This document shows, piece after piece, positions 2,614 through 51,656 of a stretch of 51,763 nucleotides of DNA. Source of the DNA: Frondihabitans peucedani (lineage in GTDB: Bacteria > Actinomycetota > Actinomycetes > Actinomycetales > Microbacteriaceae); assembly GCF_039537585.1 (NCBI RefSeq), contig NZ_BAABAU010000006.1, forward strand, positions 1 through 51,763, read 5' to 3'. The notes under the pieces were generated by a model. The model saw only the letters and a program-made list of their open reading frames with translations, ran no database searches and was not told the origin of the DNA. The position numbers and the translations under genes were made by a program. Numbering within the stretch: position 1 is the first letter of the stretch; the number at the start of each line of letters is the position of its first letter.

Positions 2614-3535
2614 CACGAAGACCGCCAGCGCACCGACGGTCGACGTCGCGCGGCTCCGCGAGATCCGCGCGACCGAGCCCGAGGCGATCGGCGCCGCGCT
2701 GGCCAGCCGGGTGCGGAGGCCGCTGCTGCAGGGCGACGGCAGGCTGTTCATCGTCGCGGCCGACCACACCGCCCGCGGCGCCCTCGGGGTCCGTGGCGAT
2801 GCGCTCGCCATGTCCGACCGCGGCGAGCTCCTCCGCCGCCTCGTCGTCGCGCTCGAGCGGCCCGGCGTCGACGGGGTCCTCGGCACGCCCGACATCCTGG
2901 AGGACCTCGCCCTCCTCGGCGCCCTCGACGGGAAGGTCGTGGTCGGCTCGATGAACCGCGGCGGGCTCCAGGGGGCCTCGTTCGAGATGGACGACCGCTT
3001 CACCGCCTACTCCGCCAGGTCGATCGTCGACTCCGGCTTCGACTTCGCCAAGCTCCTCGTGCGCATCAACCTCGCCGACCGGGCGACGGCCGACACCATC
3101 GAGGCCACCGCCCGCGCGGTCACCGAGTCGGCAGCCCTCCGCCTCCCGATCATGCTCGAGCCGTTCGTCTCGGACTGGGTCGAGGGCAGGATCGTGAACG
3201 ACCTGAGCACCGAGGCCGTCGTCAAGTCGGTCGCCATCGCCTCCGGCCTCGGAGAGTCGACCGCCTACAGCTGGCTGAAGCTCCCCGTCGTCCCCGACAT
3301 GGAGCAGGTGATGGCCGCGACGACGCTGCCCACGCTGCTGCTCGGCGGCGATCCTGCCGAGAGCCCGGCCGAGACGTACGAGAGCTGGGCGCGAGCACTC
3401 GCCCAGCCCGGCGTCCGCGGCCTCACGGTCGGGCGCACGCTGCTCTACCCGCCCGACGACGACGTCGAGGCAGCCGTCGACATCGCGGCCGGCCTCGTCC
3501 ACCCCGGCGTCTCCGCCGCTTCCCAGAACGCCTAG
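2606..3535 (+). CDS. DeoC/FbaB-like aldolase of the inositol pathway (Cgl0158 type)
   Basis: A 309-residue TIM-barrel aldolase-like protein. It has IVAADHTARGALGV near residue 50, VDGVLGTPDILEDLALL near 90, and a predicted Schiff-base region around FAKLLVRINL. In actinobacterial iol operons a protein of this type sits directly after iolC and is thought to cleave 2-deoxy-5-keto-gluconate 6-phosphate to malonate semialdehyde and dihydroxyacetone phosphate, the job of IolJ elsewhere. The start overlaps the iolC stop (ATGTCTGA), implying translational coupling. No classical IolJ is visible in the window, which supports this role, but substrate specificity is inferred from context. Confidence 0.78.
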   Translation: MSDTKTASAPTVDVARLREIRATEPEAIGAALASRVRRPLLQGDGRLFIVAADHTARGALGVRGDALAMSDRGELLRRLVVALERPGVDGVLGTPDILEDLALLGALDGKVVVGSMNRGGLQGASFEMDDRFTAYSARSIVDSGFDFAKLLVRINLADRATADTIEATARAVTESAALRLPIMLEPFVSDWVEGRIVNDLSTEAVVKSVAIASGLGESTAYSWLKLPVVPDMEQVMAATTLPTLLLGGDPAESPAETYESWARALAQPGVRGLTVGRTLLYPPDDDVEAAVDIAAGLVHPGVSAASQNA

Positions 3536-3549
3536 TCGAAAGAACGCCC

Positions 3550-5079
3550 ATGACCACGACCTCAGCCGTCAGCGAGACGACCGGCACCGACCTCCCCGAG
3601 ATCACCCACTGGATCGACGGGAGGCGCGTCCCCGGGACCTCCGGGCGCACCGCACCCGTCTTCGATCCTGCGCTCGGCGTCGCGACGAAGCGGGTCGCTC
3701 TCGCGAGCCAGGAGGAGATCGACGCGGCCATCGCGTCCGCGAAGGCGGCCTTCCCCGCCTGGCGCGACCTGTCGATCACGAAGCGCCAGCAGATCATGTT
3801 CCGCTTCCGCGAGCTGGTGAACGAGCGGAAGGACGAGCTCGCCGAGATCCTGACCTCCGAGCACGGCAAGGTCCTCTCCGACTCGATCGGCGAGATCCAG
3901 CGCGGCCTCGAGGTCCTCGAGCTCGCGACCGGCTTCCCGCACCTGATCAAGGGCGAGTTCAGCCAGCAGGTCTCCACCGGCGTCGACGTCTACTCGACGA
4001 AGTCGCCGATCGGCGTGGTCGGGGTCATCAGCCCGTTCAACTTCCCGGTCATGGTGCCGATGTGGTTCTTCCCGATCGCCATCGCCGTGGGCAACACCGT
4101 CGTGCTCAAGCCGAGCGAGAAGGACCCGTCGTCGTCGATCTTCCTAGCCGAGCTCTTTCAGGAGGCGGGCCTCCCCGACGGCGTCTTCACCGTCCTGCAG
4201 GGCGACAAGCTCGCGGTCGACGGCCTCCTCGAGAGCCCCGACGTCGCGAGCATCTCGTTCGTCGGCTCGACTCCCATCGCGAAGTACATCTACGAGACGG
4301 CCGCGAAGAACGGCAAGCGCGTCCAGGCGCTCGGCGGGGCGAAGAACCACATGCTGGTGCTGCCCGACGCCGACCTCGAGCTCGTCGCGGACTCCGCGAT
4401 CAACGCCGGCTTCGGCTCGGCGGGCGAGCGGTGCATGGCGATCAGCGTGCTCGTCGCGGTGGACGACGTCGCCGACCGGGTCGTGCCGATGATCCGCGAC
4501 CGCATGGCGCAGCTGACCGTGGGCGACGGCCGGCGCTCCTGCGACATGGGCCCGCTGGTCACCGAGCAGCACCGCGACAAGGTGGCCTCCTACGTCGACA
4601 TCGCTCTCGAAGACGGCGCCGAGGTGGTCGTCGACGGGCGCGGCATCGAGGTGGACGGCGACGAGGGCGGCTTCTGGTTCGGCCCGACTCTGATCGACCG
4701 GGTGCCGCTGACCAGCCGCGTCTACACGGAAGAGATCTTCGGTCCGGTCCTGAGCGTGGTCCGGGTCGCCACCTACGAGGAGGGCGTCGACCTCATCAAC
4801 GCGGGCGCCTTCGGCAACGGCACCGCGATCTTCACCAACGACGGCGGGGCCGCGAGGCGCTTCCAGAACGAGATCGAGGTCGGCATGATCGGCATCAACG
4901 TGCCGATCCCGGTGCCCGTCGCCTACTACTCGTTCGGCGGCTTCAAAGACTCGATCTTCGGCGACTCGAAGGCGTACGGCCTCCAGGGCTTCCACTTCTT
5001 CACCCGCGAGAAGGCGATCACCTCGCGCTGGTCCGACCCGAGCCACGGAGGCATCAACCTCGGCTTCCCGCAGGCATGA
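3550..5079 (+). CDS. mmsA: Methylmalonate-semialdehyde dehydrogenase, CoA-acylating (IolA/MmsA)
   Basis: A full-length (509 residues) aldehyde dehydrogenase. FNFPVMVPMWFFPIA (near residue 162) and the catalytic GERCMA with Cys at about residue 295 are diagnostic of the CoA-dependent MMSDH subgroup, which converts malonate semialdehyde to acetyl-CoA and CO2 using NAD and CoA. The motif FTREKAITSRW near the C-terminus is also typical. It lies 14 bases after the aldolase stop. In the inositol pathway it takes malonate semialdehyde made by the preceding enzyme; it may also serve valine catabolism. The stop overlaps the iolB start (ATGA), so the two are probably coupled. Confidence 0.92.
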   Translation: MTTTSAVSETTGTDLPEITHWIDGRRVPGTSGRTAPVFDPALGVATKRVALASQEEIDAAIASAKAAFPAWRDLSITKRQQIMFRFRELVNERKDELAEILTSEHGKVLSDSIGEIQRGLEVLELATGFPHLIKGEFSQQVSTGVDVYSTKSPIGVVGVISPFNFPVMVPMWFFPIAIAVGNTVVLKPSEKDPSSSIFLAELFQEAGLPDGVFTVLQGDKLAVDGLLESPDVASISFVGSTPIAKYIYETAAKNGKRVQALGGAKNHMLVLPDADLELVADSAINAGFGSAGERCMAISVLVAVDDVADRVVPMIRDRMAQLTVGDGRRSCDMGPLVTEQHRDKVASYVDIALEDGAEVVVDGRGIEVDGDEGGFWFGPTLIDRVPLTSRVYTEEIFGPVLSVVRVATYEEGVDLINAGAFGNGTAIFTNDGGAARRFQNEIEVGMIGINVPIPVPVAYYSFGGFKDSIFGDSKAYGLQGFHFFTREKAITSRWSDPSHGGINLGFPQA

Positions 5080-5996
5080 ACGAGTGGTTCTTCCCCCGCG
5101 GCACCCTGGCGCGGGGCGACTGGGAGACCGTCGTCGACGACACGTTCGAGGGCTGGCAGCACACCGGCCTCCGCATCGGCGACCTCGGCGCCGCCGGCAG
5201 TGCGGGCCTCACGCTCGAGGCCGAGGGCGTCGAGCGGATGGTCGTGCCGCTCTCGGGCGACGTCCGCATCGCTCACGAGGGCGCAGGATCCCGCGGCGAG
5301 ATCGACCTCGTCGGCCGCCGGTCGGTCTTCGACGGGCCCTGCGACGTCGCCTACCTCGGCGTCGGCGTCCGGGCGACGCTCACCGGCACGGGCCGCGTCG
5401 CGGTCGCCGAGGGGCCCGCGACCGAGCCGCTCGACGTCCAGGTGCTCCGGGCAGCCGACATCCCCGTGGAGATCCGGGGTGCGGGCCGGTCGACCCGCCA
5501 GGTGCACAACCACGGCACCCCCGCCGGGCTCCACGCGCAGAAGCTGATCGTCTGCGAGGTGATCACCCCGGCCGAGAACTGGTCGTCGTATCCGGCGCAC
5601 AAGCACGACGAGAGCGTGCTCGGCACCGAGTCGCGGCTGGAGGAGATCTACTACTTCGAGTCGGCCGTCTCCCGCGGCGTCGACGCCCCCGCAGGCGCCG
5701 ACCCGTTCGGCCTGTTCGCGACCTACTCGTCGCCGGCCGGCCGCATCGACGTCAATGCGCTCGTCCGCACCGGCGACGTCGCCCTGGTGCCGTTCGGCTA
5801 CCACGGCCCCGCGGTGGCGGCCCCCGGCTACGACCTCTTCTACCTCAACGTCATGGCGGGCCCCGACCCGGAGCGCGTCTGGAACATCTCCGACGACCCC
5901 CGCCACGCCTGGGTCCGCGAGCAGTGGGCGACCCAGCAGCCCGATCCGAGACTCCCGTACACGCGAGCCACCACCCCCGAAGGGCAGCACCGATGA
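5076..5996 (+). CDS. iolB: 5-deoxy-glucuronate isomerase (IolB)
   Basis: This 306-residue bicupin protein matches IolB/KduI. Motifs include STRQVHNHGTP (near residue 147), WSSYPAHKHDE (near 173), the metal-binding EEIYYFE, and a second cupin strand VPFGYHGP near residue 240. It isomerises 5-deoxy-D-glucuronate to 2-deoxy-5-keto-D-gluconate, the substrate of IolC. The ATG at 5076 overlaps the mmsA stop and its own stop overlaps the iolD start (ATGA at 5993-5996), a chain of translational coupling. A much longer open frame continues upstream but overlaps mmsA and is Arg-rich shadow sequence. Confidence 0.9.
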   Translation: MNEWFFPRGTLARGDWETVVDDTFEGWQHTGLRIGDLGAAGSAGLTLEAEGVERMVVPLSGDVRIAHEGAGSRGEIDLVGRRSVFDGPCDVAYLGVGVRATLTGTGRVAVAEGPATEPLDVQVLRAADIPVEIRGAGRSTRQVHNHGTPAGLHAQKLIVCEVITPAENWSSYPAHKHDESVLGTESRLEEIYYFESAVSRGVDAPAGADPFGLFATYSSPAGRIDVNALVRTGDVALVPFGYHGPAVAAPGYDLFYLNVMAGPDPERVWNISDDPRHAWVREQWATQQPDPRLPYTRATTPEGQHR

Positions 5997-7903
5997 GCAC
6001 CACCCCGACGACGAAGCGGATGACCGTGGCGCAGGCCCTGGTCGAGTTCCTGGCCAACCAGTGGACGGTCGACGGCGACATCCGCGAGCGCACCATCCCC
6101 GGCGTCTTCGGCATCTTCGGACACGGGAACGTCGCAGGAGTCGGCCAGGCCCTCAAGCAGATCCACGAGACCGATCCTGGTCTGATGCCGTACTTCCAGG
6201 CGCGGAACGAGCAGGCGATGGTGCACCAGGCGGTCGGGTACGCCCGCATGCACCGCCGTCGCGCGACCTACGCCGCCGCCGCGTCCGTCGGGCCCGGAGC
6301 CGCGAACATGCTGACCGGCGCCGCCCTCGCCACCACGAACCGACTGCCCGTCCTGCTCCTCCCGAGCGACACCTTCGCCACCCGGGTCGCCGACCCGGTG
6401 CTGCAGCAGCTCGAGATGCCGCACGACACGAGCGTGCAGGTCACCGACGCGTTCCGCCCGCTCTCGCGCTTCTTCGACCGCGTCCAGCGACCCGAGCAGC
6501 TGTTCTCCATCGCGCTCGCGGCGATGCGCGTCCTGACCGATCCTGCCGAGACCGGTGCCGTGACCATCGCCCTGCCCGAGGACGTCCAGGCGGAGGCGCT
6601 CGACGTCCCGCTGGAGTTCCTGCAGCCCCGCGAGTGGCACATCCGGCGGCCGCTTCCCGAGCGCGGCCCGCTCGAGAGGGCCGTCGCCGCCATCCGAGGC
6701 GCGGAGCACCCCTTCGTCGTCGCCGGCGGCGGGGTCCTCTACTCCGGCGCCGAAGAGCTGCTCGCCGCCCTCGCTTCGGCCACCGGCATCCCGGTCGGCA
6801 CCACTCAGGCCGGCGGCGGCGCGCTCCTCCACGACCACCCGCAGTACCTCGGCGGAGTCGGGGCGACCGGCACCCTCGCCGCCAACCGCCTCGCGGCCGA
6901 GGCCGACGTGGTCATCGGCATCGGCACCCGGTACAGCGACTTCACGACGGCGTCGCGCACCGCGTTCCAGAACGACGACGTCACCTTCGTAAACATCAAC
7001 GTCGCCCCGTTCGACGCCTACAAGCACGGCTCGCAGCTGCCCGTCGTCGCCGACGCGCGAGAGACCCTCGAGGCGCTCGCCGGAGCCCTCGCCGGGTTCC
7101 ACGTGAGCGACGAGCACGCCGCGACGGTGGCGCGCGAGAAGAGCGGCTGGGACGCCCTGGTCGACGAGGCCTTCCGGCCGACCGGCCAGGCGCTGCCCGG
7201 GCAGTCGGAGATCATCGGAGCCGTGCAGGCCGCGAGCGACCCCACCGACGTGGTCGTCCAGGCCGCAGGATCCCTCCCGGGCGACCTCCACAAGCTGTGG
7301 CGGGTCCGCGACGCGCTCGGCTACCACGTCGAGTACGCGTTCTCGACGATGGGCTACGAGATCGCGGGCGGGCTCGGCGTCAAGCGCGGAGCGCCCGAGC
7401 GCGACGTCATCGTCATGGTCGGCGACGGGTCGTACCTGATGCTGCACACCGAGCTCGTCACGGCGGTGGCCGAGGGGATCAAGATCATCGTCGTCCTGAT
7501 CCAGAACCAGGGGTTCGCCTCGATCGGCCACCTCTCGGAGACCGTCGGCTCCGAGCGCTTCGGCACGCTCTACCGGAAGCGCGACCCCGAGACCCTCGAC
7601 TTCCAGGGCAGCGAGATCCTGCCTGTCGACCTGGCCGCCAACGCGCGGAGCTACGGCATCGACGTCATCGACATCCTGCCCGGGGCATCCGCGATCGACG
7701 ACCTGTCGGCCGCGCTCGCGACCGCGAAGGCGTCGCCCACCGCGACGCTGATCCACATCAACAGCGACCCGCTCGTCTACGCGCCCGACGGCGACGGCTG
7801 GTGGGACGTCCCGGTCGCTCAGACCTCGACCCTGCCGAGCACCGGCCGGGCCTACGACGAGTACCTCGTCGACAAGGCGAGGCAGCGGCCGCTCCTCGGC
7901 TGA
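5993..7903 (+). CDS. iolD: 3D-(3,5/4)-trihydroxycyclohexane-1,2-dione hydrolase (IolD)
   Basis: A 636-residue thiamine-diphosphate enzyme. Features in order: the PYR domain with the activating Glu in YFQARNEQAMVHQAVGYAR (near residue 72), a central Rossmann-like domain with VAGGGVLYSGAEE, and the PP domain with GDGSYLMLHTELVTA (near 477) followed by NQGFASIGHLS, the GDG-(n)-N motif that binds TPP and Mg. IolD opens the ring of the trihydroxy-dione to give 5-deoxy-glucuronate. Length is as expected. It is coupled to iolB and followed by an 82-base gap before iolE. Confidence 0.92.
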   Translation: MSTTPTTKRMTVAQALVEFLANQWTVDGDIRERTIPGVFGIFGHGNVAGVGQALKQIHETDPGLMPYFQARNEQAMVHQAVGYARMHRRRATYAAAASVGPGAANMLTGAALATTNRLPVLLLPSDTFATRVADPVLQQLEMPHDTSVQVTDAFRPLSRFFDRVQRPEQLFSIALAAMRVLTDPAETGAVTIALPEDVQAEALDVPLEFLQPREWHIRRPLPERGPLERAVAAIRGAEHPFVVAGGGVLYSGAEELLAALASATGIPVGTTQAGGGALLHDHPQYLGGVGATGTLAANRLAAEADVVIGIGTRYSDFTTASRTAFQNDDVTFVNINVAPFDAYKHGSQLPVVADARETLEALAGALAGFHVSDEHAATVAREKSGWDALVDEAFRPTGQALPGQSEIIGAVQAASDPTDVVVQAAGSLPGDLHKLWRVRDALGYHVEYAFSTMGYEIAGGLGVKRGAPERDVIVMVGDGSYLMLHTELVTAVAEGIKIIVVLIQNQGFASIGHLSETVGSERFGTLYRKRDPETLDFQGSEILPVDLAANARSYGIDVIDILPGASAIDDLSAALATAKASPTATLIHINSDPLVYAPDGDGWWDVPVAQTSTLPSTGRAYDEYLVDKARQRPLLG

Positions 7904-7985: not shown

Positions 7986-8921
7986 ATGACCATCACCGAC
8001 TCGACGACCGCCACCCAGGGCATCCGCATCGGCACCGCGCCCGACTCCTGGGGCGTCTGGTTCCCGGAGCACCCGAGCCAGGTGCCGTGGAACCGGTTCC
8101 TCGACGAGGTCGTCGAGGCGGGCTACGAGTGGATCGAGCTCGGGCCGTTCGGCTACCTGCCCACCGATCCGAACCAGCTGCAGGACGAGCTCGGCTCCCG
8201 CGGCCTGAAGCTCTCCGCCGGCACCGTCTTCACCGGCTTCCACAAGGGCGCCGACCAGTGGAAGCGGGCCTGGGACCAGGCGCTCGACGTGGCGGGTCTC
8301 GCCTCGCAGCTCGGCGCCGAGCACCTCGTCGTCATCCCCGACCTGTGGCGGAGCGACCTCGACGCCTCGGTGATCGAGCCGCGGTCTCTCGATCCTGAGC
8401 AGTGGGAGGCCCTCGGCCGCGGTCACGACCAGCTGGGCAAGGCGCTGTTCGAGGAGTTCGGCATGCGCCAGCAGTTCCACACGCACGCCGACAGCCACGT
8501 CGGGACGTACCAGGAGACCGAGCGGTTCCTCGAGGTGACCGACCCCCGGTTCACGAACCTCTGCCTCGACACCGGCCACTTCGCCTACTACGGCGGCGAC
8601 AGCGTCCGCCTCATCGAGGCGCACCCCGAGAGGATCGGCTACCTGCACCTCAAGCAGGTCGACTCCGACCTCCGCTTCACGGTGCTGAAGAACGACATCC
8701 CGTTCGGCGACGCCGTCGCGATGGGCGTGATGGTCGAGCCGCCGCTCGGCGTGCCCGAGTTCGCCCCGATCATCGAGGCCGTCGCGAAGCTCGACCCGAG
8801 CATCTTCGGGATCGTCGAGCAGGACATGTTCCCGGTGCCGTCGCTCGACCTCCCGCTCGGGATCGCCACCCGCACCCGCGAGCACATCTTCGGCTGCACG
8901 GCGATGGCCCGCATCCGCTGA
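7986..8921 (+). CDS. iolE: Inosose dehydratase (IolE)
   Basis: A 311-residue xylose-isomerase-like TIM barrel (AP-endonuclease-2 fold). It begins IRIGTAPDSWGVWFPEHPSQ and contains GYEWIELGPFGYLPT, FHTHADSHVGTY and CLDTGHFAYYGGD, all strongly conserved in IolE; the His/Asp/Glu residues here bind the catalytic metal. The enzyme removes water from scyllo-inosose (2-keto-myo-inositol), giving the dione used by IolD. The ATG at 7986 sits after AGAAAGCAGACACC, a moderate ribosome site. Position between iolD and the dehydrogenase fits the pathway. Confidence 0.9.
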   Translation: MTITDSTTATQGIRIGTAPDSWGVWFPEHPSQVPWNRFLDEVVEAGYEWIELGPFGYLPTDPNQLQDELGSRGLKLSAGTVFTGFHKGADQWKRAWDQALDVAGLASQLGAEHLVVIPDLWRSDLDASVIEPRSLDPEQWEALGRGHDQLGKALFEEFGMRQQFHTHADSHVGTYQETERFLEVTDPRFTNLCLDTGHFAYYGGDSVRLIEAHPERIGYLHLKQVDSDLRFTVLKNDIPFGDAVAMGVMVEPPLGVPEFAPIIEAVAKLDPSIFGIVEQDMFPVPSLDLPLGIATRTREHIFGCTAMARIR

Positions 8922-9007: not shown

Positions 9008-10063
9008 ATGTCCCCCTCACCCGCCCCTCTCCGCGTCGCCGTCGTCGGTGCCGGCGCCATGGGCAGCGACCACGTCAGCAGGATCACGCGCAGGATCTCG
9101 GGCGCCGAGGTCACCGCCGTCGTCGACCCCGACTCCGCCCGCGCGACGGCCGCTACGGCCCTCGCCCCCGGGTCGCAGACGTACTCCTCCTTCGAGGAGG
9201 CCCTCGACGCGACGCCGATCGACGCCGTGATCATCGCGACGCCCGGGTTCCTGCACGAGCCGGTGATCCTGCCCGCCCTCGAGAGGGGTCTCGCGATCCT
9301 GAGCGAGAAGCCCCTGAGCGACACCGTCGAGTCGAGCCTGCGCATCATCGAGGCGGAGCAGAGGCTCGACCGGCCGCACATCCAGGTCGGCTTCATGCGG
9401 CGCTTCGACCGCGGCTACCTCGAGCTCCGCGAGCTGGTCGAGAAGGGCGAGAACGGCGCCCTCCTGGCGCTGCACTGCGCTCACCGCAACCCGTCGACGC
9501 CGCCGAACTACTCCGAGTCCGCGCTCATCACCGACTCGGTGATCCACGAGATCGACATCGTGCCGTTCCTCGCGGGGGAGCCGATCGTCTCGGTCGAGGT
9601 GAAGAAGCCGCGCCGCAACTCGCTCGCTCCGGAAGGGCTCGTCGAGCCGCAGTTCGTGCTGTTCGAGACGCTCTCGGGCACCCTCGCGATCGTCGAGATC
9701 AGCGTCAACATCCAGTTCGGCTACCAGGTGACCACCGAGGCCGTGTTCGAGTCGGGCGTCGCCTCGATCGGCCGGGCCGAGACGATCCAGGTCGCCTCAG
9801 CCGGCACGCTCGGACAGGGTGTCACGCCGTCGTACAAGGAGCGCTTCGGCGCCGCCTACGACACCGAGATCCAGCGCTGGGTCGACGCCGCGGCCCGAGG
9901 CGCGATCGACGGCCCGTCGGCCTGGGACGGCTACCTCGCCAGCGTCGTCGCCGACGCGGGCGTCCTCGCGCAGTCGACCGGCGAGAAGGTCGCCGTCGAG
10001 TACGCGCTCGAGAAGCCGGCCTTCTACGAGGCGGGTGCGTCGTTGACATCGACGGGGGCGTGA
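9008..10063 (+). CDS. Gfo/Idh/MocA family inositol dehydrogenase-like oxidoreductase
   Basis: A 351-residue NAD(P)-dependent oxidoreductase. The Rossmann motif VVGAGAMGSDH is at about residues 13-23, IIATPGFLHEPV near 77 and the family-defining EKPLS near 100; the catalytic region contains DSVIHEIDIVPFL near 180, with the His/Asp pair expected for inositol dehydrogenases. It probably oxidises myo-inositol (or an isomer) to the inosose used by IolE. Start ATG follows a strong GAAGGAGAAACC ribosome site. Paralogues in this family act on scyllo- or chiro-inositol, so the exact isomer cannot be read from sequence. Confidence 0.82.
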   Translation: MSPSPAPLRVAVVGAGAMGSDHVSRITRRISGAEVTAVVDPDSARATAATALAPGSQTYSSFEEALDATPIDAVIIATPGFLHEPVILPALERGLAILSEKPLSDTVESSLRIIEAEQRLDRPHIQVGFMRRFDRGYLELRELVEKGENGALLALHCAHRNPSTPPNYSESALITDSVIHEIDIVPFLAGEPIVSVEVKKPRRNSLAPEGLVEPQFVLFETLSGTLAIVEISVNIQFGYQVTTEAVFESGVASIGRAETIQVASAGTLGQGVTPSYKERFGAAYDTEIQRWVDAAARGAIDGPSAWDGYLASVVADAGVLAQSTGEKVAVEYALEKPAFYEAGASLTSTGA

Positions 10064-10067
10064 TCCT

Positions 10068-10983: not shown

Positions 10984-11400
10984 ATGCCACTCGTCCGCAT
11001 CGACGTCACCCAGGGGCGCACCGACGCCGAACTCCGATCCATCGCCGACGCGATCCACACCTCGATCGTCGAGGTCTACGGCATCCCGGAGCGCGACCGC
11101 TTCCAGGTGATCAACGAGCTCCCCGCGGGGCGGATCATCGCCGAAGACGCCGGGCTCGGCTTCGAGCGCACCCCGGGCGTGATCCTGATCCAGATCTTCA
11201 CCCAGCGCGGCCGCAGCGAAGACGACAAGGGCGCTCTCTACGCCAGGATCGCCGCAGCCCTCGGCGAGCTCGGCGTCGCCGGCGAGGACGTCTTCATCGG
11301 CTACGTCGAGAACGGCCCGGAGGACTGGTCGTTCGGCTACGGCCGCGCGCAGTACGTCACCGGCGAGCTGTCGGTGCCGTCTACTTATCGACCAGAGTGA
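10984..11400 (+). CDS. Tautomerase family protein with N-terminal proline
   Basis: A 138-residue protein beginning Met-Pro-Leu-Val-Arg-Ile. After Met removal the N-terminal Pro is the general base of the 4-oxalocrotonate tautomerase/MIF superfamily. Length and the block GVILIQIFTQRGRSEDDKG resemble the two-motif Tautomerase_2 group rather than the 60-residue 4-OT monomers. A good ribosome site (CCGAAAGGACCCC) precedes the ATG. As last gene of the iol operon it might assist keto-enol steps of an inosose or dione; this is inference. Its last 20 bases overlap the convergent gntR gene. Confidence 0.72.
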   Translation: MPLVRIDVTQGRTDAELRSIADAIHTSIVEVYGIPERDRFQVINELPAGRIIAEDAGLGFERTPGVILIQIFTQRGRSEDDKGALYARIAAALGELGVAGEDVFIGYVENGPEDWSFGYGRAQYVTGELSVPSTYRPE

Positions 11401-12142: not shown

Positions 12143-12195
12143 GAGGCTTCCTGGGTCGGGGGAGCGGGGCCCGCAGAGTGCAGGATCGTCGCCCC

Positions 12196-18082: not shown

Positions 18083-18096
18083 AAGTCGTCACAAGC

Positions 18097-39457: not shown

Positions 39458-39458
39458 G

Positions 39459-40977: not shown

Positions 40978-41008
40978 CAGGAGGAGCAGCAGACCAGAGA
41001 GGACGCCC

Positions 41009-42196: not shown

Positions 42197-42231
42197 GCTG
42201 ACCACGCCGGCCCCTCCGGGCGGAGTGCCGA

Positions 42232-42948: not shown

Positions 42949-42965
42949 GGGTTTCCTTTCGGTGG

Positions 42966-45028: not shown

Positions 45029-46287
45029 CGGACCGATCCCTTGGCTCGGGTGGGAGCGCCCTGACTGGCGCTCACCGCGTTCGTGTAGAGAGAGGCGGTC
45101 CGCGAGGCGATGCGGTCCCAGGAGTAGCGCGAGCGGGCCCGCGATGCGCCGGCGCGGCCGAACGCCGCACCGGTGTCGGGGGAGTCCAGGATGCCCGCCA
45201 CGGCCGAGGCGATCGCCTCCGGGTCCCGAGGCGGCACGCTCCGACCGGTCACCCCGTCGACGACGGTGTCGATGAGCCCGCCGACGGTGGCCGCGACCAC
45301 GGGGACGGCGCAGGCCATCGCCTCGAGCGGCACGATCCCGAACGGCTCGTACCAGGGGGCGCAGATGACGGCGTCCAGGGAGCGGAGGACGCGGGGGAGC
45401 TCCTGCTGGTCGAGGCGGCCCCGGAGGTGCACGCGGTCGGCGACGCCCAGCTCGTCCGCGAGGGCGAGGAGGGTCCTGGCGGTCTCATCGTCCTCGAGGT
45501 GGTCGGCGGCGGGACCGCCGACGACGAGGAGCTCGACGTCGCGGCCCTCCTCGACGAGCTGCGCCAGCGCGGAGATGGCGAGCCCGTGGCCCTTGCGAGG
45601 CACGAGCCTGCCGATCGTCGCGATGCGGTGCGGGCGGGCGCGCTCCTCGACGGGGCCGTCCGGCTGGAACACCGCGGTGTCGACGCCGCAGGGCGCGATG
45701 GCGATCTTGTCGGCGTCGACGCCCATGCTGCGGAGCTCGAACACCTCGTCGGAGCAGGTGGCGATGACGAGGTCCGACGACCTGCCGACCGACGGCTCGA
45801 GGTACTCGCGCTCGCCGGGGCTCGTGTCCTGCGCGCCCTGGTGGCGGCGCTTCACCTGCCCGAGGGCGTGGAATGTCTGGACGTGCGGGATCGGCGACCG
45901 CCCGCCGCGCGCCTTGAGCGAGGGCCGCGAGACCGCGTCGGCAGCGGCGAGGCCCGACATCCAGAAGTGGGCGTGGACGACGTCCGGGCGGTCGGCGAGG
46001 AAGGCGCGCTCGAGGCCGTCGGCGAGGGCCGGCATGAAGGGGAGCAGGTCGTCCTTCGGGATCGTCTCCGCCGGGCCCGCGTCGAGGTGGACGACCTCGA
46101 CGCCGGACGGCATGACGACGCTCTCCGGCAGCTCCGGGTCGTCGCGCCGCGTGTACACGACGACGTCGTGCCCGCGGCGGACGAGGGCGGCCGACAGCTG
46201 CGCCACGTGGACGTTCTGCCCGCCTGCGTCTACTCCGCCGAGCGTCGCCAGCGGGCTGGCGTGCTCCGAGACCATCGCGATCCTCAT
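45025..46287 (-). CDS. Family 4 glycosyltransferase
   Basis: A 420-residue GT-B enzyme. It begins RIAMVSEHASPLATLGGVDAGGQNVHVAQL, typical of GT4 enzymes related to sucrose synthase and MshA. VVHAHFWMSG, ATIGRLVPRKGHGLAI (near 217) and CAPWYEPFGIVPLEAMACAVPVVA, with the E-x7-E motif (near 310-325), follow. It transfers a sugar from a nucleotide donor, perhaps in the same glycan as the GT9 enzymes. It overlaps both neighbours by four bases. Confidence 0.86.
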   Translation of the reverse strand: MRIAMVSEHASPLATLGGVDAGGQNVHVAQLSAALVRRGHDVVVYTRRDDPELPESVVMPSGVEVVHLDAGPAETIPKDDLLPFMPALADGLERAFLADRPDVVHAHFWMSGLAAADAVSRPSLKARGGRSPIPHVQTFHALGQVKRRHQGAQDTSPGEREYLEPSVGRSSDLVIATCSDEVFELRSMGVDADKIAIAPCGVDTAVFQPDGPVEERARPHRIATIGRLVPRKGHGLAISALAQLVEEGRDVELLVVGGPAADHLEDDETARTLLALADELGVADRVHLRGRLDQQELPRVLRSLDAVICAPWYEPFGIVPLEAMACAVPVVAATVGGLIDTVVDGVTGRSVPPRDPEAIASAVAGILDSPDTGAAFGRAGASRARSRYSWDRIASRTASLYTNAVSASQGAPTRAKGSVR

Positions 46288-47351
46288 GATGCCGTCGTCC
46301 TCTCGTACGGTGTCGGGTGGTTCTCTTCCGGGTCGTGCCGGATGCTCCGGGCGAGCCCCGCCCCCTCGGCGGCCTCGGCGGCGGTGGCGCCCCCGACGAC
46401 GTTCGCGAGGACCGCGTCCCAGTCGGCCAGGAAGCGGCTCAGGCCGTACCGGCGGAGCGCGTGGGCCCTCGCGATCCTGCCTGCCGCTCTCGCCTCGTCG
46501 GGGTCGTGCACCAGCCGGCGCGCGGTCGACGCCAGCACTCCCAGGTCGGTCGACACGGCACCCGCCCCGGGCGGCACGGCGTGGAACGCCTCGGTGGTGG
46601 CCAGGGCGATCACGGGCATCCCGAGGTGCATGGCCTCGATGAGCGAGAGGCCGAGCGATGTCCAGCGGATCGGGTGCAGGTAGACGCGGCGTCGGGCGAG
46701 GCTCTCGTGCAGCCTCCTCGTCGGCAGGTCGCCTTCGACCGCCAGGCGGTCCTCGCCGAGCCCGAGGGCCTCCCCGAGTCCGTCGGCGTTCATGCCGTAG
46801 ACGTCGATCGGCGCCGCGTCGGCGAACGCCGGCAGGAGGTCGGATCCGGTCACGCGCCAGCGGCGCACCGGGTCGTTGACGACGACGCCGAAGCGCGGCA
46901 GCTCGCCGGTGTAGAGCTCGCCCGGGTCGACGACGCCGTGCTCGATGACGGTGGTCGGTGCGCGGCCGCAGTCCCAGAACAGCGAGTTGAAGGGCGTGAC
47001 GTGGGCGACCAGGATGTCGTCGCGCTCAGACAGGGGGTGCACCGAGTTCGGGACGTCGCGCCGCGGGGTGTTGTGCTCGACGAAGACGGCGGGGACGTCG
47101 CGGCCGAGGCGGCGGCCGAGCAGCTCCTCGGCCTTCTCGAGGTCCTCGGTCCGCTGCAGGACGACGAGGTCGACCCCGGCGTCGCGGAGGTCCTCCGGCG
47201 CGATCTCCCGCACCGACTCCGGCCAGTCGCGACCGCCGCGGCCGAGCCCCCAGGGGCCGCCCTCGGGGGTGGTGGGCAGCAGGTACTCGTGCTCGCCGCG
47301 GACGAACGCGTCCGTCCAGCCGCCGTGCACGTGCCAGAGCAGGATCCTCAC
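46284..47351 (-). CDS. GT-B glycosyltransferase (GT4-like)
   Basis: A 355-residue protein from GTG 47351. RILLWHVHGGWTDAFVRGEHEYLLPT opens it; VPAVFVEHNTPRRDVPN (near 95) and the C-terminal VYLHPIRWTSLGLSLIEAMHLGMPVIALATTEA (near 235-265), with the E-A-M-x-x-G-x-P motif, show a GT4-like fold. This type is typical of actinobacterial glycan clusters where it lies between GT9 and GT4 genes. The GTG overlaps the preceding stop (GTGA) and the stop overlaps the GT4 start (ATGA). Confidence 0.78.
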   Translation of the reverse strand: MRILLWHVHGGWTDAFVRGEHEYLLPTTPEGGPWGLGRGGRDWPESVREIAPEDLRDAGVDLVVLQRTEDLEKAEELLGRRLGRDVPAVFVEHNTPRRDVPNSVHPLSERDDILVAHVTPFNSLFWDCGRAPTTVIEHGVVDPGELYTGELPRFGVVVNDPVRRWRVTGSDLLPAFADAAPIDVYGMNADGLGEALGLGEDRLAVEGDLPTRRLHESLARRRVYLHPIRWTSLGLSLIEAMHLGMPVIALATTEAFHAVPPGAGAVSTDLGVLASTARRLVHDPDEARAAGRIARAHALRRYGLSRFLADWDAVLANVVGGATAAEAAEGAGLARSIRHDPEENHPTPYERTTAS

Positions 47352-48406
47352 GAGGCGACTCCTTCTTCGTGGATCAGGGACGGCCGGCCGGCCAGGTCGA
47401 CGACGGCGCGGACGACGTCGTGCTCGGTCACGCCGGCGAGGCAGGGGTGACCCGCGATCGGGCAGTCCCGGGCGCGGCTGCCGCGGCAGGCGGCCCCCTG
47501 GTCGCCGAGCAGGATCGTCGGCGTCCGGTAGGGCGCCCAGCGGATCGCGGGCACCACGGGCGAGAAGAGGCTGACGACGGGCGCTCCGACGGCGGCGGCG
47601 AGGTGGGCGGGCCCGGTGTTGCCCACGACGACGGCCTCCGACTGCGCGAGCACGGTGGCCAGCTGGCCCAGCGAGAGCCGCCCGCCGAGGTCGACGCCGT
47701 CGACTCCGGCGACGCTCGCGGTGAGGCCGGTCTCGGACGGACCGCCCGTCACGACGACGTCGAAGCCGGCGCGAGCGAGAGCGGGGACGCAGGATCGGGC
47801 GCGCTCGGCGGGCCAGGTGCGGGCCTCGACCTGCGCACCGGGGTGCAGCACCACGAAGCGCTCCGGCAGCAGCGCCTGGACGTCCGCGGGCAGCTCCTCG
47901 GCGAGCACGGCGAGGCGTCCGTCGTCGCCCGCGGGCAGCACGTGGCCGGCGGCACGGGCGATCGCGAGCTGCCGCTCGGGCTCCGGCTGGTCCTCGACGA
48001 GGTCCTCGCCGGGCCGTAGCCGGACGTCGAGGAGGCTCCCGGCGTAGTCGGTCGACGCGCCGGTGATGCGCGAGACCCCGGCCAGCCGGAGGAGCAGCGC
48101 CAGCGGCAGCGGCGACTGGTGGAACGAGCTCAGGATCACGGCCTCGTCGGGCGCCCACTCGCGGAGCAGGCCGGCCAGGCTCTCGACGTGCTCGGGCGTC
48201 GCGGCAGGCGCAGGATCGACGATCCACGGTGCCGACCAGGTCAGCACGCGATCGACGCCAGGCAGGAGTCGGCCGGCCGCCGCACCCTCGGGCGAGCAGA
48301 GCAGGGCGACCTCGGCGCCGGGGGTCGCCGCCACCGCGCGGATCGCCGGGCCTGAGACGAGCACGTCGCCGACGCTGTCGAGTCGAGCCACCAGGATCCG
48401 GGTCAC
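47348..48406 (-). CDS. Family 9 (heptosyltransferase-like) glycosyltransferase
   Basis: A 352-residue GT9 enzyme from GTG 48406. ILVARLDSVGDVLVSGPAIRAVAA (residues 4-27) is the WaaF-like start; FVVLHPGAQVEARTWPAE (near 189) and AVVVGNTGPAHLAAAVGAPVVSLFSPVVPA (near 267) match heptosyltransferases. A C-terminal Cys cluster (GAACRGSRARDCPIAGHPCLAG) is common in actinobacterial members. It overlaps the GmhB-type gene by four bases, part of a seven-gene set. Confidence 0.86.
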   Translation of the reverse strand: MTRILVARLDSVGDVLVSGPAIRAVAATPGAEVALLCSPEGAAAGRLLPGVDRVLTWSAPWIVDPAPAATPEHVESLAGLLREWAPDEAVILSSFHQSPLPLALLLRLAGVSRITGASTDYAGSLLDVRLRPGEDLVEDQPEPERQLAIARAAGHVLPAGDDGRLAVLAEELPADVQALLPERFVVLHPGAQVEARTWPAERARSCVPALARAGFDVVVTGGPSETGLTASVAGVDGVDLGGRLSLGQLATVLAQSEAVVVGNTGPAHLAAAVGAPVVSLFSPVVPAIRWAPYRTPTILLGDQGAACRGSRARDCPIAGHPCLAGVTEHDVVRAVVDLAGRPSLIHEEGVAS

Positions 48407-48966
48407 CGGGCTACCTCGACGGCGTCGAGCAGCTCCAGCGCGCGCTCGACGGCGGCCTCGAGATCCGGGGCGACGAGGGAGGCGGCGTCGACCTCGGCCG
48501 CGCGGGTGGCGGAGGTGGGGACGAGGATGCCGCGGGATCCTGCGCTCTCGGCGGCGGTCACGTCGGAGCCGATGTCGCCGATCAGGACGACGCGGTCCGC
48601 CTCCACGCCGAAGAAGCGCTGCGCCTGGAGCACGAGGCCCGGCGCGGGCTTGCGGCAGTCGCAGCCCTCGTCGCGGCCGTGCGGGCAGACGAACCAGGCA
48701 TCGAAGGGCCCGATCAGCTCGTCGACCCGGGAGTTCACGGCGTCGACCTCGGCCCTGGTCGCCCGGCCGTCGCCGATCATGCCCTGGTTCGTCGCGACTC
48801 CGACTCCGAACCCGGCGGCCCGGACACGCCGGACCGCCCGGGCTGCGCCCTCCACCGGGGCGACGAGAGCCGGATCCCGGTTGTAGGGCACGTCGTGCAC
48901 GAGGGTGCCGTCCCGATCGAACAGGACGACCCCCTGCGGCGCGACGGAGAAGGAGGAGAAGGTCAT
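48403..48966 (-). CDS. gmhB: D-glycero-D-manno-heptose 1,7-bisphosphate phosphatase-like HAD protein (GmhB)
   Basis: A 187-residue HAD-IIIA phosphatase. VVLFDRDGTLVHDVPYNRDP (residues 13-32) has the nucleophile and acid Asp pair; VATNQGMIGDG (near 57) is motif II, and the zinc loop CPHGRDEGCDCRKPAPG (near 93-109) plus LIGDIGSDVTAA (motif IV) are features of GmhB. It removes the C7 phosphate between the two HldE steps. ATG 48966 lies in the divergent region and starts the operon; a longer frame to 49086 would run into the GT9 gene on the other strand. Confidence 0.87.
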   Translation of the reverse strand: MTFSSFSVAPQGVVLFDRDGTLVHDVPYNRDPALVAPVEGAARAVRRVRAAGFGVGVATNQGMIGDGRATRAEVDAVNSRVDELIGPFDAWFVCPHGRDEGCDCRKPAPGLVLQAQRFFGVEADRVVLIGDIGSDVTAAESAGSRGILVPTSATRAAEVDAASLVAPDLEAAVERALELLDAVEVAR

Positions 48967-49076
48967 ACAGGCGCTGTTCCCACAGGCGCTTCTTCTCAAA
49001 CCCCTCGAGGGCTCCCGAGGGTCCCGGAGGGTCCCGAAGCGCAGATCCGGGCCCGATGTCGGCGGCTGCTGGCACC

Positions 49077-50117
49077 ATGGCCCCAATGCGACGGCTCTCC
49101 GACACCCCCAGCGACGTTCCCGAGATCCTGGCGCTCCGAGCGCTCAAACTGGGCGACCTGCTGGTCGCGGTCCCGGCCATCCACGCGCTCAAGCGCGAGC
49201 GGCCCGACCACGACCTCGTGCTCGCGATCCCCGGCTGGCTCGAGCCGATCGCCGAGCTGACCGGCGCCGACGTGCTGCACCCCACCCCCGGGCTCGACCA
49301 CCCGCTCGCCGAGCCCGCCCGGGCCGGCCGCTTCGACACGGTCGTCAACCTGCACGGCAACGGCCCTGAGAGCCGCGGAGTGCTCGACCTCCTCGACGCG
49401 CCGCACCGCATCGGGCACCGCGCCTCGGGCTGGGACGGCCCCGAGTGGGAGGACGGCGTCCTGGAGCGCCACCGCTGGGCCCGCCTGGTCGACTCGTTCG
49501 GCATCCCGGCCGACCGCGACGACATCGCGATCGACCGCCCTGCGGTCCGCAACGTCGCCCCCGGGGCCGTCGTCGTGCACGTCGGCGCCTTCTACGGGTC
49601 GAGGCACTGGCCCGAAGAGCGCTTCGCCCGAGTCGCCCAGGGGTTCGCGGCCGACGGCCACCGCGTCGTGTTCACCGGGAGCGCGGCCGAGCGCCCCCGC
49701 GCGGTCGAGGCCGCCCGGCTCGCGGGCCTCCCCGACGAGAGCGTGCTCGCCGGCACGATCGACCTCGCCGAGATGGCCCTCGTCGTCGCCGAGGCCGCGC
49801 TCGTCGTCTCGGTCGACACCGGGGCCGCCCACCTCGCCTCCGCCTACGGCACCCCCTCCGTGGTGCTCTTCGGCCCGGCGCCGGTCGAGGAGTGGGGCCC
49901 GCCCGAGCACGGCCCGCACATCGTCCTGACCGACGCGTCGCTGCGGGTCGGCGACACCTTCGGCACCGAGCCCGACCCCGCCCTCCTCGCGGTGCAGCCC
50001 GCCGACGTGCTCAGCGCCGGACGAGAGGTCGTCCGAGGAGTAGAACCGGGAGCGACCGCGCTGTCCCCAGGGCCGATCGGCCAGGCGACCGGCCCGGCGG
50101 AGAGGACCGACGAATGA
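49077..50117 (+). CDS. Family 9 (heptosyltransferase-like) glycosyltransferase
   Basis: A 346-residue GT9 enzyme, the third in the locus. ILALRALKLGDLLVAVPAIHALKRERPDHDLVLAI (near 17-51), VVHVGAFYGSRHWPEERFARVA (near 168) and ALVVSVDTGAAHLASAYGTPSVVLFGP (near 241) fit the family. The start may be ATG 49077 or the in-frame ATG 49086; neither has a Shine-Dalgarno. The stop overlaps the GAF-ANTAR gene start (ATGA), tying a glycosyltransferase to a regulator. Confidence 0.84.
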   Translation: MAPMRRLSDTPSDVPEILALRALKLGDLLVAVPAIHALKRERPDHDLVLAIPGWLEPIAELTGADVLHPTPGLDHPLAEPARAGRFDTVVNLHGNGPESRGVLDLLDAPHRIGHRASGWDGPEWEDGVLERHRWARLVDSFGIPADRDDIAIDRPAVRNVAPGAVVVHVGAFYGSRHWPEERFARVAQGFAADGHRVVFTGSAAERPRAVEAARLAGLPDESVLAGTIDLAEMALVVAEAALVVSVDTGAAHLASAYGTPSVVLFGPAPVEEWGPPEHGPHIVLTDASLRVGDTFGTEPDPALLAVQPADVLSAGREVVRGVEPGATALSPGPIGQATGPAERTDE

Positions 50118-50866
50118 CCGACGACCGATTCTTCGCGATGCTCGCGGAAGACCTCCAGACGGAGCCCGACCTCCGACAGACGGTCATCCGCGCGGCCGGC
50201 TACGCCCGTGCTCTCCTCGGCACCGACGACGCCGTGATCCGCTTCCACCGCGCGTCGATCCCGGGGGAGGCCCGCGTCGCCGCCACCAGCGCGCAGGCAG
50301 AGAACGCCGACGACCTCCGCATGCTGCACCGAGCCCCGGGCGCCTCGCGTCGCGATCCCGACCGCATCGTCGTGGCCGACACCGCCACCGACACGCTCTA
50401 CCCGGCCTGGTCGCGCTCGATCCTGGCGCTCGGGTACGGCAGTGCGATGACGGTGCGCCTCGACGCGAGACGCCACTCCGTCGGCCTGCTCACCGTCCTG
50501 TCGGAGCACCGCAACGACTTCTCGCCGACCGCCAGGCGCCTCGACCTCGACGCCCTCGACACGCTGGTGCGCCACATGTCGGTGGCCCTCTACGACCTGC
50601 GCGCAGCCGTCGACTTCGACGCGGCCATCGAGAGCCGCACCGTCGTCGGTCAGGCGCAGGGCATCCTGATGGAGCGGCACGGGCTCGACCAGCACCGCTC
50701 CTTCGAGGTGCTCCGGCGGCACTCCCAGCAGGGCAACATCAAGCTGACAGACGTGGCTCGGGCCCTGGTCGACACTCGAGAGCTGCCGCAGCCGGCGCCT
50801 GGCCGAACGCGCAGCGCAGCTCCCGGAGCAGCCGCGCGAGGATTCGAGACACCTGCATCTGCGTGA
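50114..50866 (+). CDS. GAF and ANTAR domain regulator
   Basis: A 250-residue protein. An N-terminal GAF-like sensor (about 10-150: LRQTVIRAAGYARALLGTDDAVIRFHR, SMTVRLDARRHSVGLLTVLSEHRNDF) precedes an ANTAR RNA-binding domain (about 163-220: AIESRTVVGQAQGILMERHGLDQHRSFEVLRRHSQ and LTDVARALV). ANTAR proteins bind dual-hairpin RNAs and stop transcription termination. The last 25 residues, Pro/Ala-rich, are encoded by DNA that is antisense to the end of the sigma factor gene (128-base overlap). It is coupled to the upstream GT9 gene. Confidence 0.86.
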   Translation: MTDDRFFAMLAEDLQTEPDLRQTVIRAAGYARALLGTDDAVIRFHRASIPGEARVAATSAQAENADDLRMLHRAPGASRRDPDRIVVADTATDTLYPAWSRSILALGYGSAMTVRLDARRHSVGLLTVLSEHRNDFSPTARRLDLDALDTLVRHMSVALYDLRAAVDFDAAIESRTVVGQAQGILMERHGLDQHRSFEVLRRHSQQGNIKLTDVARALVDTRELPQPAPGRTRSAAPGAAARGFETPASA

Positions 50867-51656
50867 CCCCGATCCTGCGCCCGATCTCCTGCTGGCTGAG
50901 CTCCTCGGCGTAGCGGAGGCGCAAGACCTCGAGGTCGCGCGGCGCCAGGCCCCGGAGGGCCGGGGCGAGGTCGCTGGTGCGGTCCACGCGCTCGAAGCCG
51001 CCCTCGTCGTAGCCCAGGAGCTGGCCGAACGGCACGCCCTCGGAGCCCGACACGGGCATGTCCAGCGAGAGCACGCGGCTGTCGTCCTGGACGCGCTGCG
51101 CCTCGCGGAGGTCGTCGACGCTGCAGCCGACGACCGCGGCGAGCTCGTCGACGCTCGGGCGGGAGTGCCCCGAGTCGCGGAGGTCGTCCTCGGCGTGCGC
51201 GGCGGCGGCGCGGATCTCCTGCAGGTTCCGAGGCGGTCGGACCAGCCAGCCGTGATCGCGGAGGTGCCGTTTGATCTCGCCGCGGACCGTGGCGACGGCG
51301 AAGGCGACGAAGTCCTGGCCTCGATCGACGTCGAAGCGCTCGGCGGCCTTCACCAGGCCGAGGCAGGCCACCTGCCGGATGTCGGCGAGGTCGCGGCGGC
51401 GTGCGCCGTAGCGGAGGGCCAGCGCTTCCGCCACGTCGAGGTGGTCCTCGACGACGGCGTTGCGGGCTCGGCGCGCGGTCTCGGGGTCGGCGGCGCGCGC
51501 GCTCTCGAGGGTCGAGACGGTGCGACGCTGCCGGGCTGCTTCGGCGGGCGTCCGCGCCGAGGTGCGGGCGGGGGCTGCGAGGGGAGTCGGGGCGGGGCTC
51601 GGAGTGAGGGTCCGCGGGCGGACGACGGTCAGGACGGGTTCGGCAACGATGGTCAT
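50739..51656 (-). CDS. SigB/SigF-type RNA polymerase sigma factor
   Basis: A 305-residue group 3 sigma factor. After a Pro/Ala-rich N-terminus (about 1-40), region 2 is DLADIRQVACLGLVKAAERFDVDRGQDFVAFAVATVRGEIKRHLRDH (near 91-137), region 3 includes PPRNLQEIRAAAAHAEDDLRD and region 4 ends with the helix-turn-helix LSQQEIGRRIGVTQMQVSRILARLL (near 250-275). This is the SigB/SigF general-stress type that reads GTTT-N15-GGGTA promoters. ATG 51656 follows ACAGGAGCGCC. No anti-sigma gene is next to it inside the window. It overlaps the ANTAR gene by 128 bases at the 3' end. Confidence 0.88.
   Translation of the reverse strand: MTIVAEPVLTVVRPRTLTPSPAPTPLAAPARTSARTPAEAARQRRTVSTLESARAADPETARRARNAVVEDHLDVAEALALRYGARRRDLADIRQVACLGLVKAAERFDVDRGQDFVAFAVATVRGEIKRHLRDHGWLVRPPRNLQEIRAAAAHAEDDLRDSGHSRPSVDELAAVVGCSVDDLREAQRVQDDSRVLSLDMPVSGSEGVPFGQLLGYDEGGFERVDRTSDLAPALRGLAPRDLEVLRLRYAEELSQQEIGRRIGVTQMQVSRILARLLRELRCAFGQAPAAAALECRPGPEPRLSA

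Follow-up and report, generated by a model that had tools for sequence, protein, structure and literature searches.

GATCCTG, an Over-Represented Genomic Word of Frondihabitans, and Related Words in the Microbacteriaceae

Introduction

Over-represented genomic words have been grouped as Chi sites, uptake sequences, and highly iterated palindromes (HIPs) (PMC4390886). Here we examine the heptamer GATCCTG, which recurs in both orientations in a 51,763-nucleotide stretch of DNA (the window) from the actinobacterium Frondihabitans peucedani (contig NZ_BAABAU010000006.1). A preliminary description of this stretch, made from sequence alone, had singled out the word and proposed several roles for it.

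The DNA uptake sequences (DUS) of Neisseriaceae are short, non-palindromic words with thousands of copies per genome, and their eight dialects follow phylogeny around a common core, CTG (PMC3630211). The uptake signal sequences (USS) of Pasteurellaceae are 9 to 10 bases long, occur in two versions that differ between species, and are driven to accumulate in tolerated places. About 10% of uptake sequences form inverted pairs, and the part of the source used here reports no orientation bias for them (PMC1939737). Chi-like words are likewise short, non-palindromic, and over-represented in the core genome; Chi of E. coli occurs once per 5 kb, and the proteobacterial candidates are five similar motifs spread over the phylum (PMC8022716). 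HIP1 is found about once per 1000 bases, and some cyanobacteria have alternate HIPs, each with a matching methylase (PMC4390886). Competence of Micrococcus luteus has been established via Flp pili and ComEA/ComEC; the portion of that report used here mentions no uptake preference and contains no occurrence of the term "uptake sequence" (PMC4322843). A search of the openly licensed literature returned no report of such a word in Microbacteriaceae, which is no proof that the observation is unpublished, and none announcing GGATGCCG in Microbacterium. This kind of word is known already; what appears to be new is its occurrence in actinobacteria, with dialects across a whole family.

Results and Discussion

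A recount gave 65 copies of GATCCTG in the window, with the first and last positions as claimed and in agreement with the earlier hand count of about 65. The accompanying expectation of about four copies was too low: 100 dinucleotide shuffles gave a mean of 9.0 and a maximum of 18 (0/100 reached 65), and an order-2 Markov model predicts 10.7. Against the same model, GATCCTG ranks within the top two 7-mers of the window. The top 8-mer is GATCCTGC, which is GATCCTG extended by its preferred 3′ base and approximates the fuller word. The window's own genome (G000; 3,692,699 bases or 3.69 Mb, 12 contigs) contains 5,025 copies, corresponding to 1.36 per kb. Both orientations are common, as had been stated (2,541 forward, 2,484 reverse). 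The reversed pattern, counted as a control, occurs 36 + 40 times (76 in total).

Codon usage fails to account for this excess, which upholds the earlier claim of selection against codon preference. As a null model, synonymous codons were permuted inside each gene (40 shuffles), with genes called by a simple rule based on the GC content at third codon positions (GC3). In a G000 sample of 311,763 bases (245 called genes, 275,433 coding bases), coding DNA holds 395 copies compared with a shuffled mean of 83.3 and maximum of 101. Against this null model, GATCCTG ranks first among the 7-mers. The codon-favored frame, xxG ATC CTG, contributes 48.9 of the 83.3 expected copies. The observed counts exceed expectation in each of the six frames, including unfavored ones (57 vs 4.8; 28 vs 0.8, or ~35-fold; 9 vs 0.6), and the density outside called genes (56 copies in 36.3 kb, 1.5 per kb) matches that inside them (1.4 per kb). 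The Asp codon choice noted in the window itself is also real: Asp is mostly GAC in the core genes (544 vs 85 GAT), yet of 41 Asp-Pro pairs 9 are written GAT CCT and 2 GAC CCT. All seven Asp-Pro sites named in the preliminary description read GAT CCT G in the open reading frame (ORF) tested; the one at 26775 is uncertain, since the ORF tested there spans 26208–26936 and the gene caller chose 26355–27344 on the minus strand instead. Codon-pair habits of the family (Microbacteriaceae) can be dismissed as the cause because the corresponding ratios are near 1 in other genera: 1.3 in Microbacterium (pooled loci), 1.2 in Curtobacterium, Agromyces, and Rathayibacter, and 1.0 and 1.4 in genomes G027 and G044, as opposed to 4.6 in a larger sample of G000. 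A fair estimate of the excess over codon usage is nearly five-fold. These data support the conclusion that GATCCTG is a genuine genomic word, selected or driven.

The excess is specific to the exact heptamer. Among the 21 words that differ from GATCCTG by one base, the highest ratio is 1.8-fold and most are about 1 or lower, compared with 4.7-fold for the word itself. No single one-off word is a depleted donor, which rules out single-base repair of the very short patch (VSP) type. The base directly 3′ of the word is preferentially C (7.5-fold vs 2.7 to 3.6 for the other bases), the second is preferentially G (7.2 vs 3.2 to 4.1), and A is disfavored at the 5′ side (2.6 vs 4.7 to 5.9). The remaining flanking positions showed no consistent preference, and no extension was found beyond about −1 to +8. 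The fuller word is therefore about (not A)GATCCTGCG.

Along 391,763 bases of G000, the copies are distributed in a Poisson-like manner (mean 1.47, variance 1.41 per kb). Intergenic densities are 1.86 per kb between tandem, 1.74 between convergent, and 1.34 between divergent genes. Terminator hairpins are ruled out as the origin of the word, as inverted pairs are not in excess and the copies show no terminator-like clustering. Successive sites share a strand in 268/547 cases in G000, 102/200 in G001, 110/224 in G003, and 126/244 in G006 (0.49 to 0.52). In these four genomes, 60 to 70% of the sites are on the coding strand, which fits codon preference because the codon shuffle itself places ~65% there. 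By hand sums over contig halves, with the origin assumed near the contig start, the leading-sense share is 53% in G001, 55% in G003, and 53% in G004. The word is thus free of the strand bias of Chi or of FtsK-orienting polar sequences (KOPS), as had been claimed, with a mild bias by contig halves in G006 only.

All seven Frondihabitans genomes (G000–G006) contain GATCCTG at 0.44 to 1.36 per kb. Measured against the codon shuffle in samples of 260 kb for each congener, GATCCTGC is enriched in all seven species (observed/expected: G000, 287/40.3; G001, 132/20.1; G002, 52/12.2; G003, 105/18.8; G004, 76/17.4; G005, 71/17.1; G006, 139/25.5). In three of them, another word leads or equals it: CGGATCCT in G002 (110/15.3), GCTCCTGC and GCATCCTG in G004 (126/33.3 and 93/22.6), and GTTCCTGC in G005 (77/15.3). 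Elsewhere in Frondihabitans, the last does not exceed about two-fold. Second words also accompany the main one in G001 (GCTCCTGC, 102/32.5; CGGATCCT, 48/12.1), and GCATCCTG stands at 75/24.5 in G003 and 88/27.9 in G000. These mixed states look like gradual replacement. The dialect words were picked after ranking all 6- to 9-mers, and no formal correction was applied. In a six-gene tree, G006 is the sister of G000 and G003 that of G001 (support 1.0); G004 lies closer to G000 and G006 (0.63), and G002 and G005 fall outside.

For GATCCTG outside the genus, an evenly drawn sample of the order (149 genomes) shows densities of about 0.03 to 0.50 per kb, a raised background in line with the favored codons ATC CTG. 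Among 398 family genomes, only G220 (0.92 per kb) clearly stands out; behind it come some genomes of the Leucobacter group at about 0.5. Other lineages have words of their own. Ranking of 8- and 9-mers in pooled named loci gave CGGATGCCG in Microbacterium (observed/expected 179/25), CGGATGCC in Agromyces (75/19) and in a pool of Plantibacter, Gryllotalpicola, Humibacter, and Schumannella (30/5), CGGATCCG in Clavibacter (30/4, 38 kb only), and CGGATGCG in Pseudoclavibacter (24/4). Since these loci are orthologous regions of related species, shared ancestry inflates the counts. Genome G027 contains CGGATGCCT 14 times, with less than 1 expected. No such word stood out in the small samples of Curtobacterium, Rathayibacter, Frigoribacterium, and three Promicromonosporaceae loci. 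In the pooled Curtobacterium loci, purine-rich 9-mers are raised (GAAGGAAGC, 15 vs 1; GAAGGGACT, 11 vs <1), an observation that orthologous sampling may inflate.

Whole-genome counts of CGGATGCC over the 398 family genomes are free of this inflation and show that it stands in for GATCCTG in much of the family. The highest count is that of G503 (4,113 copies in 4.4 Mb; reversed control 230), and the Humibacter genome G230 has 4,041 (3.9 Mb; reversed control 116). The seven Frondihabitans carry only 0.09 to 0.11 per kb, and the G000 sample shows no excess (29 vs 28.3 expected from codons). Within one genus, g3, the number ranges from 313 (G075) to 3,329 (G103). Two g3 genomes are outliers, G075 with 0.09 and G538 with 0.18 copies per kb, where their congeners have 0.55 to 0.82; these low values suggest loss of the word, or a different dialect, inside a single genus. 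Aligned by eye in one orientation, most of the words share GGA or GGAT (GCAGGATC, GCAGGAGC, GCAGGAAC, AGGATCCG, CGGATGCC, CGGATCCG, CGGATGCG). The dialects across the family had gone unnoticed in the preliminary description.

What could such words be for? The reading that we favor, with a probability of roughly 0.4, is that GATCCTG(C) serves as a chromosomal self-label, in the manner of the uptake sequences found in Neisseriaceae and Pasteurellaceae. DNA bearing the word would be taken up, or recombined into the chromosome, more readily than word-free DNA. Each import would add words, which would then accumulate by molecular drive wherever genes tolerate them, inside and outside coding sequence and irrespective of strand or frame. 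If the preference of the receptor shifted, the genome would follow, and sister species or genera would end up with related but different words. The lack of orientation and the tolerance of coding sequence favor this interpretation, and the dialects do so above all: only a process with drive would readily rewrite thousands of sites between sisters, which is an argument rather than a result. Further points in its favor are the genome-wide excess over codon expectation, the even distribution of sites, and the weak or absent excess in the island core of the window and in the plasmid-like contig C2. Amino acids encoded by the word are also somewhat less conserved than those of flanking codons in five of six comparisons (0.677 vs 0.764 in G003; ~100 codons each), the exception being G006 (0.863 vs 0.853). 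Together with the turnover of sites described below, this indicates that words are gained and lost, mainly at positions that proteins can accommodate. The uptake-like role suggested in the preliminary description thus gains from the dialects and from the absent polarity, although the import of DNA as the driver is something that we infer. The word works most like an uptake sequence, without being classed as one.

Like DUS, the word is short, non-palindromic, and present in thousands of copies, and it has dialects that follow phylogeny with a common core. Strong over-representation at about one copy per kb (1.36) and dialects that share GGA, by our own reading of the word lists, are both traits of uptake sequences. 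Unlike DUS, it resides in an actinobacterium, it lacks the share of about 10% inverted pairs (a trait that is not strictly defining), and the pilins of one examined operon do not follow the dialect as a receptor pilin would; a second PilM locus of G006 lies outside this comparison. With USS it has in common that versions differ between species and that drive would lead to accumulation in tolerated places. Its core is shorter than that of USS, it has no extended flanks, and most copies fall within genes, a consequence of the dense genome. More tentatively, Microbacteriaceae may label their chromosomes with lineage-specific words, dialects around a GGA core that would form a barrier to DNA exchange between species, by way of an independent uptake system with a new receptor. 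If so, sequence-specific recognition of self-DNA would exist in high-GC Gram-positive bacteria, many species that differ in their words could be compared within one family, and the way in which a word starts, spreads, switches, and isolates species would become directly testable. Should the driver be something other than DNA uptake, the data would point to a genomic word whose reader is still to be found.

Several observations weigh against an uptake-like role. In the layout sample, 38 adjacent pairs lie less than 40 bp apart compared with 32.6 expected, so that hairpin pairs are not in excess; 12 of the 38 are the overlapping palindrome CAGGATCCTG. In G006, by a hand sum that assumes the origin near the contig start, 62% of the sites follow the leading sense, with forward copies counted in the first contig half and reverse copies in the second. 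Conservation of sites is low: in aligned stretches, the G000 sites are retained in 14/58, 10/55, 17/67, 13/66, and 18/87 cases in five congeners, below the identity of 28 to 34% seen there for 7-mers in general. The sister G006 retains 43/93, with 33% of all 7-mers identical there. One-for-one switching between dialects is rare, with GTTCCTG at 2/87 G000 sites in G005, and GCTCCTG and CATCCTG at 3/66 and 6/66 in G004. Plasmid stretches of G003 carry the word as well, with 14 coding copies compared with 4.2 expected (15 copies in all, in 10-kb samples of three small contigs). Finally, the openly licensed literature yielded no uptake experiment on these bacteria.

The competence genes speak for and against such a role. 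A type IV pilus and ComEC occur in the genus, as uptake would require, without any tie to the word. ComEC is present in all seven Frondihabitans (in two pieces in G003) and in 388/398 family genomes, with or without the word; being near-universal, it is uninformative. PilM is a marker of the type IV pilus proper. It occurs in all seven Frondihabitans, in G006 in pieces and with a further match on another contig. The PilM operon of G000 includes two T2SSE ATPases, T2SSF, a prepilin peptidase, and PilO, with other genes named by position. Two of its pilins carry an N-methylation motif above the cutoff and a third one below it, and one is similar to type IV pilins with solved structures from several bacteria. 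Family-wide, PilM occurs in 184/398 genomes, and over 85 genera with one genome each its presence is associated with CGGATGCC density (median 0.32 vs 0.13, p 0.0011). This association is not significant when restricted to genomes of 2.5 Mb or more (0.37 vs 0.27, p 0.13), and Humibacter (1.04 per kb), g2, and g3 are rich in the word without PilM in the genome tested. Minor pilins of G000 share 75 to 80% identity with their counterparts in G002, where a different word leads, and 39 to 48% with those of the sister G006, where the word is the same. Therefore, the dialect is accounted for neither by having this pilus nor by these pilins, and we rejected the type IV pilus as an explanation: PilM does not clearly track density in larger genomes, and the pilins, examined in one operon, do not match the word. 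As a separate observation, the pilin genes (L229, 6689–10619; counterparts in L233 and L235) seem to move between species, with ~80% identity between G000 and G002 and ~40% to G006. ComEC of G003 (L104, L105) and several pilus genes of G006 (L235) are each split over two frames, by decay or assembly error.

Other kinds of word must be weighed against an uptake-like label. The preliminary description had also suggested a HIP1-like word. In a model of this kind, a methylase would mark the word, methylation-dependent repair would create and maintain it, and a change of methylase would give rise to alternate words. The similar density, the occurrence on both strands, the alternate words of some cyanobacteria with their matching methylases (PMC4390886), and the GATC inside several dialect words are all in line with this idea. 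HIPs, unlike GATCCTGC, CGGATGCC, GCTCCTGC, and GTTCCTGC, are palindromic, and GTTCCTGC is devoid of GATC. A search of 100 genomes for the C5 methylase family PF00145 gave no match in G000, G002, G220, G027, G198, and G236, all six of which carry enriched or dense words; adenine and N4-cytosine methylases were not searched for. The family is present in G001, and four further Frondihabitans lay outside the 100-genome sample. A C5 methylase of the HIP1 type was therefore rejected for G000, and a HIP1-like word in the published sense is not supported; we regard a mechanism of this general kind as unlikely. Similarly unlikely is a site for a chromosomal DNA-binding protein, required about once per 700 bases for nucleoid organization, segregation, or protection from silencing. 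The even, Poisson-like distribution of sites over coding as well as non-coding DNA would suit such a protein, as would the little or no excess in the island core of the window and in the plasmid-like contig C2. The replacement of thousands of sites between sisters is hard to explain without drive, and the plasmid stretches of G003 bear the word. No candidate protein came to light, with no search aimed at one.

A Chi-like recombination signal is very unlikely, although the word is short, non-palindromic, and enriched in the resident chromosome, as Chi-like words are (PMC8022716). Consecutive sites are unpolarized in four genomes, which speaks against Chi; only G006 is partly polarized along the contig by hand sum, and codon preference explains the weak excess on the coding strand. 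Moreover, the present words change within a genus, in contrast to the phylum-wide proteobacterial motifs, and GATCCTG is denser than Chi of E. coli (PMC8022716). We also consider it highly improbable that the word simply arises from codon, dipeptide, or codon-pair usage or through context-dependent mutation, with no protein that recognizes it. One frame is indeed codon-favored and raises the background over the order, and a few one-off words are raised too, up to 1.8-fold. The excess in all six frames, reaching ~35-fold in an unfavored one, the equal density outside called genes, the lack of a single depleted donor, and the missing excess on contig C2 of the same cell speak against this explanation. 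The codon-shuffle null and the ratios near 1 in other genera led us to reject codon, dipeptide, and codon-pair usage as the cause.

The word may serve as a practical, not an absolute, marker that distinguishes long-resident from newly acquired DNA in these genomes. In the window, an island had been described as about five-fold thinner in GATCCTG. This description applies to the island core at 14.2–26.3 kb, whose 4 copies in 12.1 kb amount to a density 4.6-fold below that of the core DNA on either side (49 in 32.0 kb). It does not apply to 26.3–34 kb, which with 12 copies in 7.7 kb is as dense as the core. Contig C2 of G000 (L086, 94,412 bases) is plasmid-like, with a MobF relaxase gene resembling that on plasmids of Frondihabitans and with 82.5% identity to one such plasmid across 3.8 kb. 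The 54.4 kb sampled from it contain 5 copies, of which 3 are coding compared with 6.2 to 7.0 expected, and hence show no excess. Contig C2 and the island core agree with the proposed use of the word as a marker of native DNA; the plasmid stretches of G003 (14 vs 4.2) do not. The island is low in GC and encodes a resolvase (17208–17933), an Mrr-type nuclease (18941–19864), an insertion sequence (IS)-type integrase (21583–22401), and Abi_2 (25182–26090). No Pfam match was obtained for 5 of the 10 island ORFs scanned, nor for one at 26355–27344. The island core and all copies in the window are as follows.

14200–26300, no strand, island core, word-poor, with resolvase, Mrr-type nuclease, IS-type integrase, and Abi_2 genes
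3187–3193, minus, GATCCTG copy
3350–3356, plus, GATCCTG copy, GAT CCT G in ORF 2606–3535
3664–3670, plus, GATCCTG copy, GAT CCT G in ORF 3550–5079
3846–3852, plus, GATCCTG copy
5284–5290, minus, GATCCTG copy
6173–6179, plus, GATCCTG copy, GAT CCT G in ORF 5084–7903
6539–6545, plus, GATCCTG copy, GAT CCT G in ORF 5084–7903
7266–7272, minus, GATCCTG copy
7615–7621, plus, GATCCTG copy
8391–8397, plus, GATCCTG copy, GAT CCT G in ORF 7986–8921
9079–9085, minus, GATCCTG copy
9091–9097, minus, GATCCTG copy
9265–9271, plus, GATCCTG copy
9295–9301, plus, GATCCTG copy
10062–10068, plus, GATCCTG copy
10634–10640, plus, GATCCTG copy
10922–10928, minus, GATCCTG copy
11181–11187, plus, GATCCTG copy
11244–11250, minus, GATCCTG copy
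12181–12187, minus, GATCCTG copy
13222–13228, plus, GATCCTG copy
13394–13400, plus, GATCCTG copy, GAT CCT G in ORF 13028–14110 (ychF-like)
13432–13438, plus, GATCCTG copy
16431–16437, plus, GATCCTG copy (island)
16640–16646, minus, GATCCTG copy (island)
19606–19612, plus, GATCCTG copy (island)
23010–23016, plus, GATCCTG copy (island)
26648–26654, plus, GATCCTG copy
26775–26781, plus, GATCCTG copy, reading frame uncertain
28079–28085, minus, GATCCTG copy
28556–28562, minus, GATCCTG copy
29354–29360, plus, GATCCTG copy
29989–29995, minus, GATCCTG copy
30367–30373, plus, GATCCTG copy
31320–31326, minus, GATCCTG copy
31838–31844, plus, GATCCTG copy
32815–32821, minus, GATCCTG copy
33279–33285, plus, GATCCTG copy
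33979–33985, plus, GATCCTG copy
34242–34248, plus, GATCCTG copy
35270–35276, minus, GATCCTG copy
35687–35693, plus, GATCCTG copy
36567–36573, plus, GATCCTG copy
37122–37128, minus, GATCCTG copy
37973–37979, minus, GATCCTG copy
37994–38000, plus, GATCCTG copy
38155–38161, plus, GATCCTG copy
38867–38873, minus, GATCCTG copy
39832–39838, minus, GATCCTG copy, first half of palindrome CAGGATCCTG
39835–39841, plus, GATCCTG copy, second half of palindrome CAGGATCCTG
40103–40109, minus, GATCCTG copy
41796–41802, minus, GATCCTG copy
42336–42342, plus, GATCCTG copy
43947–43953, minus, GATCCTG copy
46473–46479, plus, GATCCTG copy
47340–47346, minus, GATCCTG copy
47510–47516, minus, GATCCTG copy
47790–47796, minus, GATCCTG copy
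48131–48137, minus, GATCCTG copy
48211–48217, minus, GATCCTG copy
48392–48398, minus, GATCCTG copy
48536–48542, plus, GATCCTG copy
49124–49130, plus, GATCCTG copy
50419–50425, plus, GATCCTG copy
50871–50877, plus, GATCCTG copy

The window also contains, at 34573–51731, a cluster with HldE-like heptose kinase/adenylyltransferase, heptosyltransferase-like, and MshA-like genes. Together, these genes are an unusual set for an actinobacterium.

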